This document shows positions 59,816 to 62,990 of a DNA stretch of 64,000 bases, piece after piece. The stretch covers positions 1-64,000 of the forward strand of contig NZ_JAAHHT010000031.1 in NCBI RefSeq assembly GCF_010672085.1. Reading direction: 5' to 3'. This DNA comes from Okeania sp. SIO3I5 (GTDB lineage Bacteria > Cyanobacteriota > Cyanobacteriia > Cyanobacteriales > Microcoleaceae). The notes below the pieces were generated by a model, which saw only the letters and a list, made by a program, of their open reading frames with translations, was not told where the DNA came from and ran no database searches. Position 1 is the stretch's first letter. Each line of letters starts with the position of its first letter. The position numbers were made by a program, and so were the translations under genes.

Positions 59816-60511
59816 GTAGGTTACTGAATTTTAACTAAAGTGTATATTTAATAATTAACAATTAATAATTACCTCTTCTTAAAAATAAGAGGATTGGTTA
59901 AAAGGATTTTTTTTCTCTTTGAAAGGAGAGGCTTTAAACCTGATTTTTTCGGTAAAATTGCTAGATAAAGATAGTCAAATCTTGTCAGATATAAGAATAT
60001 CTAATTAGATAATAATGATAATTGATTTTCAGCCATCATATTATTGAGGAAAGATTCATTGAGAGCAATCTATTTTATCATAATTCCCCGATTATGTAAC
60101 ACCTATAGTTTAATTTAGGGCGTTGATGAATGATTGTATGATTTTTAGTGGTCAGTAGTGGTAGAGGCCATTCGTGAATCGCCCTTACAGTAGTCTGTAG
60201 TCAGTAGTTAAAAGAGCTTTTTTTTCCTTACTATGAATCTTACTCTGATCGGAATTTCATACCTTATTTCACCAATGCCTAATTTAGATTAAATAAAATA
60301 CAGAACTTAAAAAGCAAAGCTATAGTTTAAATTTCAGTTTGTCTAAATTATTTAAGTAATAAAATCATCATTCCTAACAACGATATATCCCATAACTTAA
60401 TTCCTCTCCTAAGAAATGTTAGGAGAGGAATATTTTTTAACTATACAGCAGCAAGGAGAAATAGCTCTATCAACTAAAACATTAGTATTCTTCTATACTT
60501 TAGAGTTATAA
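59816..60511. other. spacer with composite repeat and an orphan terminator
   Basis: 59860-59950 is a plain copy of the AATTACCTCTTCTTAAAAAT ... GGAGAGGCTTTAAACC spacer repeat. The rest is AT-rich with no coding frame. A strong plus-strand terminator (60400-60438) ends this stretch although no plus-strand gene precedes it. Confidence 0.5.
60400..60438 (+). terminator. rho-independent terminator without an obvious upstream gene
   Basis: Stem ATTCCTCTCCTAA (60400-60412), loop GAAATG, stem TTAGGAGAGGAAT (60419-60431), then ATTTTTT. This is a perfect 13-bp stem with T-tail on the plus strand. The nearest plus-strand gene upstream is bvdR, more than 5 kb away with arrays between. It may end an unannotated small RNA, or act against antisense transcription. 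Confidence 0.75.
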
Positions 60512-60667
60512 ATGCTATTTGACACTCTGCGCTCTAAAGAGACTCAGATTCTTCAGGTCGCACCTGAAAGGGTCGCATCAATTGGCATTTCTGCCACCGA
60601 CCCCCTACCCTGTTGCTTTTGCTTTACTTCTACTTGTTTTTTTTGCTTTCTGGGTACTACCACTTAG
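60512..60667 (+). CDS. possible Cys-rich small protein, 51 aa (alternative reading of the structured block)
   Basis: ATG at 60512 opens 51 codons. The first part, MLFDTLRSKETQILQVAPER, is polar. The end (PLPCCFCFTSTCFFCFL) is packed with Cys and Phe. TAGAG lies about 7 nt upstream. A leader-plus-Cys-rich-core plan resembles a modified-peptide precursor, but no modifying enzyme is nearby. The same bases form strong RNA stems, so the frame may be accidental. Listed only as a possibility. Confidence 0.2.
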   Translation: MLFDTLRSKETQILQVAPERVASIGISATDPLPCCFCFTSTCFFCFLGTTT

Positions 60668-60905
60668 CTTCTATACGCTCCACAACCTGTCATTGCACGC
60701 CCCAATGAATGTCGCTGAAGCACTTAAAAAGCCGTCTGTTCTCAGGTGGCCTGGATTTTTACGTACTAGGATGCTTCATTTCGCAGGCGTTTACCCTGAC
60801 TAACTTTATTAACTTTATTAATAATAACAGATCACGCTTGTTAAAACGACCGAATCGTTTTTCCGCCCCGATGCATAAAAGACTGGGCGTGACCTTACTC
60901 CCGAA
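60520..60905. ncRNA. candidate structured RNA, about 390 nt, strand undetermined
   Basis: The block is GC-richer than its surroundings and densely self-complementary. TTCAGGT-CGC-ACCTGAA lies at 60552-60568. GGGTCG (60570-60575) pairs with CGACCC (60598-60603) and encloses TGGCA-TTTC-TGCCA. TGAAGCA (60716-60722) pairs with TGCTTCA (60772-60778), with CAGG-TGG-CCTG inside. CAGG (60784) pairs with CCTG (60795). TCACGC (60832-60837) pairs with GCGTGA (60887-60892) and encloses AAAACGA-CCGAA-TCGTTTT. I do not recognise RNase P, tmRNA, 6S or SRP signatures. It directly follows infC on the minus strand. Confidence 0.45.
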
Positions 60906-60919
60906 CTTTTTTTGTGTTT

Positions 60920-61574: not shown

Positions 61575-61751
61575 TTCTCTAACATCACTTATAGAAGCTT
61601 TCTGCTTCATAGCACCCGCCTTCAAGGCCGAATCTCTCTTCAGTCTTAGGGTGGATCTGCAGGCAAGCCAGTCCGGTCTTGGGGGTTTCCCCCATTAGCT
61701 ACTGGCACTGATAGTTACTAAATCTATAGAAAAATCTTTTTTGATTTAGTT
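61575..61751 (-). ncRNA. putative omega RNA (TnpB guide RNA) region
   Basis: The 3' flank of tnpB holds the stem GGGGG-TTT-CCCCC (61681-61693) and several GC-rich complementary pieces (GAAGCTTTCTGCTTC, GGATCTGCAGGCAAGCCAGT). In this transposon group the guide RNA is made from the tnpB 3' end and right end, with the guide read from the flanking host DNA. The position and structure fit; the transcript itself is inferred. Confidence 0.5.
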
Positions 61752-62990
61752 TTAATTAAGTGTTACCTTAACGGGGTGAACTACAACACCCTCTATCCCA
61801 TTGCTAAAAGCGTTTGGGACTACTTTTCGTAATATATTTAAACTTCCATTGACATCAGCATTGTATGTGACTCCATTTGAAGCTTTATAAAGTCCTCTTT
61901 TCACTCGTTTACCACTAAATTTGTGTTTGGCACCTTTTTGGTAAACTGGTAAGTCGTCCCAGTCTAAAAAACTAGCAATTGAAGTATAACTTTCTTCATT
62001 AAGAAAGACTTTGATTCCTACTAATTTCCCTTTGTATTTTAGTTGTTCAATTAACTTAAAAAAAGGAATTTGAACAAAATTTTGATTGTTTTTGGGGCCA
62101 AGATTTAGGCTTTGTTTCCAGTTAGGATTATTCCCTATTACTAAAGTTCCTATCTGACTTTCTATCAGACGATTAATAATATACCTGCTAGTCTTATGCA
62201 GATAATCATCAATCTTTAAATTTCTTTTTGTCGATAATCTTTTGATTCTATTACTACTTTTAGCCTCCTTTAGTTCTGACTGTAGTTTGCCTTTTTTCTT
62301 ATTATAGAATTGATTAATTGATTTGACTGGTCTGCCGTTAATAATAAAGGGTTGAAAACCTTTTTTATTTGATGTTACAGCCGCCAAATTATTCACTCCC
62401 AAATCTACAGAGGCTACATGAGATTCTGACAAATCTAATTTAACTTCAAAGGATTCGTAAACCACTTCTATCACATAGTAATTAAGCTTAGGAATTATTC
62501 TCACTTGTTGCAGAGAATCATAATTTATTTTACTGTCAAAAAATAGCTCACTTTTTGATAGTAATATTTTCTGATTTTTGACTAATTGAGGTTTACTAAT
62601 CGCTTGTTTTGTATAAACTAGAATATTCCTCCCTTTCTGTTTATGTTTATATTTTGGCAGTTTAGGACGACTTTTAAACTTACTTGGACATTCATTATAA
62701 GCTCTTATAGCTTGAAAAAAACTTTGCCAATTTTCATCTAAAAGAATCAACACCTGCTGAGAAACTTTCGCCGGTATTGCTTGATAATCTGCTCCCGACT
62801 GTAACAACTTTTGAACCTTGTTATAATCTAGATAATTTCCTTTATTAATAAACTCTTGTCTAACTATGTAGTTAGCCATGTTGTAGAGATTTTTCGACAA
62901 GAAAGCTACAGCATCAAGTGATTTATAATTGGGATGATTTTTTTTAATAATAGTACGTTCTACTAACTGCATTATCGCTCCTGTCAACAT
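61752..62990 (-). CDS. tnpB: TnpB-like RNA-guided nuclease, zinc-finger-less variant with displaced Glu
   Basis: A 412-aa protein. The better start may be Met7 (MQLVERTIIKK). The N-terminal helix-turn-helix/WED region has FLSKNLYNMANYIVRQEF and PSKFKSRPKLPKYKHKQKGR. RuvC-I Asp196 lies in SVDLGVNNLAAV. The strand that usually carries the RuvC-II Glu reads LVIGNNPNWKQ (Gly286). Glu residues appear instead in LNEESYTSIASFLDWDDLP (Glu332/333). The last Asp379 is in YNADVNGSLNI. No Cys zinc finger is present: FSGKRVKRGLYKASNGVTY occupies that place. It should be a guide-RNA nuclease that preserves the transposon at donor sites. Activity depends on the alternative Glu (inference). Confidence 0.9.
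   Translation of the reverse strand: MLTGAIMQLVERTIIKKNHPNYKSLDAVAFLSKNLYNMANYIVRQEFINKGNYLDYNKVQKLLQSGADYQAIPAKVSQQVLILLDENWQSFFQAIRAYNECPSKFKSRPKLPKYKHKQKGRNILVYTKQAISKPQLVKNQKILLSKSELFFDSKINYDSLQQVRIIPKLNYYVIEVVYESFEVKLDLSESHVASVDLGVNNLAAVTSNKKGFQPFIINGRPVKSINQFYNKKKGKLQSELKEAKSSNRIKRLSTKRNLKIDDYLHKTSRYIINRLIESQIGTLVIGNNPNWKQSLNLGPKNNQNFVQIPFFKLIEQLKYKGKLVGIKVFLNEESYTSIASFLDWDDLPVYQKGAKHKFSGKRVKRGLYKASNGVTYNADVNGSLNILRKVVPNAFSNGIEGVVVHPVKVTLN

Follow-up and report, generated by a model that had tools for sequence, protein, structure and literature searches.

The window (the whole 64,000-nt stretch of Okeania sp. SIO3I5 DNA that was analysed) contains, between a membrane-protein gene and infC, a block with several short stems, for which the sequence-only reading had proposed the limits 60512-60905. 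These lie within 7–8 bases of the ends derived here (Table 1), which are based on the ends common to the block and a TnpA/TnpB element of the same genome, on near-identical family copies and on empty sites; the left joint at 60913 is uncertain by about 2 nt. The functional strand of the element is the minus strand. On the plus strand, a strong hairpin followed by a T run (60397-60437) separates the membrane-protein gene from the element and is probably a terminator. Directly upstream of infC there is a full-length TnpB gene (61752-62990, minus strand; 412 aa) with OrfB_IS605 and Cas12f1-like TNB domains; this TnpB and the one to which the element is related belong to different subfamilies. A palindromic repeat with G/C runs (GGGGG...CCCCC, with a GCGACTG-like flank) is found behind this TnpB gene (61640-61720), and a similar one inside a decayed tnpB (L008, 1930-1985); it has the look of a repeat interspersed in this genome. 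With 126 OrfB_IS605 (TnpB) matches in 10.5 Mb, the genome is very rich in IS605-type sequences.

Table 1. Coordinates in the window of the element behind infC and of its parts
Feature	Position	Strand	Remarks
Whole element	60519..60913	-	395 bp; ORF-less, non-autonomous IS200/IS605 element with IS608-like ends
Presumed target motif, ACAC on the minus strand	60914..60917	-	Precedes the left end; would serve as TnpB TAM
Left-end palindrome (GCCC...GGGGC), presumed TnpA recognition hairpin	60865..60888	-	Conserved with full elements
Right end: GAAT guide, imperfect palindrome, TCAA cleavage site	60519..60551	-	IS608-like
Promoter -10 box (TATTAT in the window copy)	60821..60826	-	Displaced by about 10 nt by a duplicated AATAAAGTT
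5' structured domain (model R1)	60653..60809	-	About 160 nt; covariation; no Rfam match
TnpB omegaRNA core, AAGUAG to TCAA	60519..60635	-	Order of parts as in tnpB 3' ends
omegaRNA stem P1, 5' arm (GGGGTCG)	60598..60604	-	Compensatory variants across orphans
omegaRNA stem P1, 3' arm (CGACCCT)	60569..60575	-	Compensatory variants across orphans
omegaRNA hairpin P2 (TTCAGGT/ACCTGAA)	60552..60568	-	Sequence, and variants in relatives
Putative guide (flanking DNA at the RNA 3' end)	60499..60518	-	Expected from TnpB biology (PMC8612924)

The block is GC-richer (0.43–0.46) than its surroundings (about 0.26–0.35 on the left side), as had been noticed from the sequence, and the earlier impression that it encodes no convincing protein also holds: its two plus-strand ORFs (94 and 75 aa) occur by chance, a Pfam search with the 94-aa ORF gave no match, and in the sense transcripts of 63 relatives (263–344 nt, measured from the anchor up to the right end) the longest ORF has a median length of 33 aa. 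We also considered a coding remnant and rejected it: the 3' core and the 3' ends of tnpB go back to a common ancestor, but no ORF is conserved in the interior. The core of one relative (L119) is still readable as protein (...RGALTTPLRLKLWAIQ). Searching Rfam on both strands, we found no match inside the block at gathering thresholds, and at E up to 10 only chance-level matches, all outside the block; a tRNA/tmRNA scan found none. Thermodynamic folding of the single sequence was unremarkable (z of -1.89 on the plus and -0.93 on the minus strand), so the stems of the block alone would prove nothing, and the proof of structure comes from comparative evidence.

A search of the element's own genome (10.5 Mb) showed that the block is repetitive, with two more short copies and a 1.9-kb element on another contig (C361). 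This longer element has the left end (66 bp, 89% identity) and the right end (40 bp, 95% identity) in common with the block, and encodes a Y1 transposase TnpA (Pfam, 2.3e-31) as well as a decayed TnpB, which makes the block an ORF-less member of IS200/IS605. Near-identical copies in other genomes stop at identical bases (TCAT or TGAC on the left, ...TCAA on the right). As in IS608, the right end consists of GAAT, then a palindrome, then TCAA, and the right-end type of the window element occurs widely across the family. ACAC precedes the left end in related copies and in full elements (L008, L050, L016, L018, L040 and L015). The palindromes near the termini, insertion 3' of a short target motif, and the absence of both target duplication and a transposase gene are as in PATEs, which are ends-only IS605 derivatives found in archaea and bacteria (PMC3119063, PMC7290912).

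Using joined-flank queries, we were able to identify empty sites. That of one Planktothrix copy is intact in four relatives (87–99% across the joint), that of a second Planktothrix copy in one relative (87%), and the window site behind infC is empty in all six congeneric genomes searched, where the match extends 10–59 bases beyond the joint. These empty sites show that the element is mobile, and the common ends point to TnpA as the enzyme responsible. Because the site behind infC is empty in the six congeners, the element is no infC regulator: the idea of a cis-regulatory RNA in the infC 3' UTR, raised in the sequence-only reading on account of a position directly behind the infC stop codon, retains practically no probability, all the more as relatives of the element sit at loci unrelated to infC. 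Judged by these sequence comparisons, the element is a lineage-specific passenger behind infC.

Two RNA parts can be recognised inside the element, the first of which is a structured domain that starts with GUGAGUAAG in most copies. As measured with a covariance model (R1), this 5' domain is present in 112 of 391 genomes of the order (43 of 150 genera), with E down to 5e-33, and several genomes, e.g. Planktothrix rubescens PCC 7821, have at least 10 copies; in a phylum-wide genome sample, matches were confined to the same order. The window copy scores 140.5 bits (E of 2e-31), its sequence having belonged to the training set. Phage records and viral contigs gave no relatives of the element; in plasmids, short stretches matching the query's 3' end were all that was found. 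Among 66 distinct sequences of the domain, 94% of pair cells hold standard pairs and 14 of 23 pairs show compensatory changes, a number reached by none of 500 shuffles, while in slid controls of the alignment the paired cells drop to 30–46%. The 66-sequence alignment was fitted to the model, so these numbers lean its way; an unfitted 12-sequence alignment agrees. The structure that had been proposed for the block is thus borne out by comparison, not by folding energy. Over a short length CCTAGTACG resembles the 23S rRNA sarcin-ricin loop, a likeness that we set aside because its bases have other pairing partners in the covarying structure.

The 5' domain is preceded by a TATAAT-like -10 box in 49 out of 58 copies, mostly at one position and at a nearly fixed distance (10% in shuffled sequence). 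In the window copy this box is displaced and helix 4 is broken (CGU against AGG), both of which indicate that the copy is probably decaying; the interest lies in the family rather than in this single copy. Out of 47 tnpB loci, 46 lack the 5' domain. The sole exception is L238; here and in L249, a complete orphan element is followed by a tnpB gene at a distance of about 80 bp. By this comparison, the 5' domain is not derived from tnpB and is no part of tnpB elements. We note that in these two genomes of the same genus (L238, 1030-1500; L249, 460-930) the downstream tnpB has its own promoter-like sequence, and the pair may form a composite mobile unit in which one left end goes with two right ends.

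In IStrons, an omegaRNA occurs together with IS605 ends and a structured RNA on the 5' side, and the 5' domain could by analogy belong to a self-splicing intron that has become fused to an omegaRNA. We consider this very improbable: no Rfam intron match was found for the window (E up to 10) or for the related copy L083 (E up to 5), a search that left the 5' domain without any family, the domain starts behind its own promoter and not at the element end, and the window insertion lies behind a stop codon, outside any gene.

The second part is the 3' half of the element, which by homology is a complete TnpB omegaRNA core. Orphans and full tnpB elements with a like right end have the same order of parts (AAAGUA, a hairpin, the UAGRSG hairpin P1, P2, and the GAAUC palindrome GUGUCAA), and the tnpB genes sharing it look catalytic. 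In Planktothrix, the orphan is 86–96% identical to the resident tnpB-borne RNA over the last 130 nt; the best match of a Sphaerospermopsis orphan is the scaffold of a TnpB from its own genome (73%); in the remaining genomes, identity between the orphan cores and the small sample of tnpB copies is lower (63–81%), and a non-resident copy is sometimes the best match. The interior of the window copy's core is not alignable by blastn to the full relative in its own genome, and its assignment to the omegaRNAs is based on the order of parts, the ends and P1. Many variants of P1 are observed among orphans (GGGGCG/CGCCUU, GGGGGAU/AUCCCUU, GGUGUU/AGCACC, GAGGGUC/GACCCUU, GCGGC/GUCGC, ACGAU/AUCGU and others), and within one scaffold type (14 sequences) 100% of P1 cells pair and 16 are compensatory (0 of 500 shuffles). 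This covariation shows that the scaffold is kept as RNA, even though in the orphans no tnpB is translated through it. Since the core ends at the right end of the element, the flanking DNA would be the guide.

The two parts bear on two of the earlier suggestions for the block. An orphan mobile-element RNA of HEARO or omega type is supported as to a TnpB-type omegaRNA core; HEARO/IscB is not, with no Rfam match and the guide side at the 3' and not the 5' end. A new structured RNA is an apt description of the uncatalogued 5' domain but not of the 3' part, which is a core of TnpB type by homology. The search for homologues and covariation, likewise suggested at that time, has given homologues in 112 genomes and covariation in both the 5' domain and P1.

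With these features in hand, we can assess whether the element is an ordinary PATE, i.e., an ends-only deletion derivative moved by TnpA, with a passive tnpB leftover as core and a functionless interior. PATEs are common, and there are precedents for tnpB-derived remnants: one in Halanaerobium retains the right end together with 58 nt of tnpB (PMC7290912), and HqIRS71 of Haloquadratum retains a non-coding tnpB-like end (PMC3119063). The decayed look of the window copy would also fit. A passive leftover is not expected, however, to show a 5' domain of non-tnpB origin with compensatory changes in 43 genera, a fixed promoter, and a P1 maintained via compensatory change in the core, and we consider this explanation quite unlikely.

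A relation between the elements and TnpB is also seen at the level of genomes. The related TnpB subfamily was found in 89 of the 112 genomes with R1 and in 104 of the 279 genomes without it (odds ratio 6.5; Fisher p of 2e-14, with genomes treated as independent of kinship). In 23 genomes that have the R1 domain, no TnpB match was found at E<=1e-70; with four TnpB candidates scored per genome, this number of TnpB-less genomes is an upper bound. The best matches to Pfam PF01385 had been tried as TnpB partners and were rejected as members of other subfamilies with different right ends, which is why the comparison was repeated with a TnpB sharing the element's right end. Searching PDB with that TnpB by phmmer gave no match at 1e-3.

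Other short elements were encountered in the same searches. L028 and L033 (about 1100-1541) contain short IS605-type elements without tnpB that have a similar right end and a different RNA-like interior, which suggests further classes of orphan omegaRNA elements. An orphan copy without a left end on contig C168 (L002, 1805-2009) abuts a TnpB fragment resembling the window TnpB (78% over 37 aa), and this junction is a sign of one IS landing in or beside another.

Taken together, we think that the block is probably a decayed guide-RNA-only transposon of a widespread cyanobacterial kind, for which both TnpA and TnpB would act in trans. Mobility, ends, non-coding nature, conserved structure, promoter and homology of the core to tnpB omegaRNAs come from the sequence comparisons; from these we infer mobilisation by TnpA in trans, loading of TnpB in trans, cleavage, retention and a role of the 5' domain, as follows. 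The Y1 TnpA of full elements would recognise the IS200/IS605 ends and mobilise the protein-free element in trans. An internal promoter in the left part would drive an RNA of about 300 nt, consisting of the 5' domain and then the omegaRNA core, which would run past the right end so that about 16 nt of host DNA serve as guide. A resident TnpB would bind this orphan RNA in trans and cut the empty site left by TnpA excision, and repair would copy the element back. The 5' domain might stabilise or load the RNA, which is not preceded by a translated tnpB mRNA; TnpB is able to trim the 5' side of its RNA (PMC10278001).

For the 5' domain, we propose such a role as a stabiliser or loading module, though it may instead serve in regulation or as a decoy. 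The wider proposal, which we put forward tentatively and with slightly less than even confidence, is a guide-RNA-only selfish class, in which the 5' domain would be the module that stabilises the tnpB-separate RNA or loads it onto TnpB in trans, and an element of about 400 bp would exploit TnpA for mobility and TnpB for retention. The RNA could otherwise be regulatory: it might repress TnpB or TnpA, act as their decoy, or occupy TnpB with no cutting, and so limit rival IS605 elements or protect the host. In vitro, cleavage by TnpB is inhibited by part of a tnpB mRNA, and examples of TnpA under antisense or structural control are known (PMC10278001); the large 5' domain is also unnecessary for a minimal omegaRNA. 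The right end and the core are, however, complete up to the guide joint, and a pure decoy needs them only for transposition, so we regard the regulatory explanation as unlikely.

The elements provide an abundant natural test case for two questions: whether TnpB acts in trans, and whether elements that are non-autonomous exploit not only the transposition of others but also their RNA-guided retention. With the 5' domain, a large conserved RNA is available in 112 of 391 genomes, and named strains with many identical copies, such as Planktothrix rubescens PCC 7821 and Sphaerospermopsis kisseleviana NIES-73, make direct tests feasible; if it aids a guide RNA in trans, it may be of use in compact genome editors.

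Among known systems, IStrons resemble the element in their IS605 ends, 5' structured RNA and omegaRNA, from which it differs by the absent Rfam intron match, its internal promoter and its protein-free nature. Trans-acting or standalone IscB omegaRNAs (HEARO) were reportedly described by Altae-Tran in 2021; there, too, the guide RNA gene is apart from the nuclease gene, but the guides of IscB are located 5' and represent another RNA family, to which the element has no match in Rfam. PATEs (PMC3119063, PMC7290912) are likewise ORF-less IS605 derivatives with near-terminal palindromes and no target duplication, and are moved in trans, as the element would be; the element has, beyond fused ends, a conserved promoter, an RNA domain and a maintained omegaRNA. 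Like the omegaRNA (reRNA) of TnpB (ISDra2, PMC8612924; AmaTnpB, PMC10278001), its RNA has a hairpin-rich scaffold that runs to the transposon right end, with the flank as putative guide, and the same order of omegaRNA parts as the tnpB elements of the searched genomes; unlike it, the orphan RNA lies outside tnpB and has its own promoter and an extra conserved domain of about 160 nt. No promoter-driven RNA with such a 5' domain was found in Rfam 15 or the literature searched, and orphan TnpB guide RNAs may have been described earlier in other bacteria. TnpB omegaRNAs and PATEs are thus already known, and what is new, as far as searched, is the module of a conserved promoter and a 5' domain.
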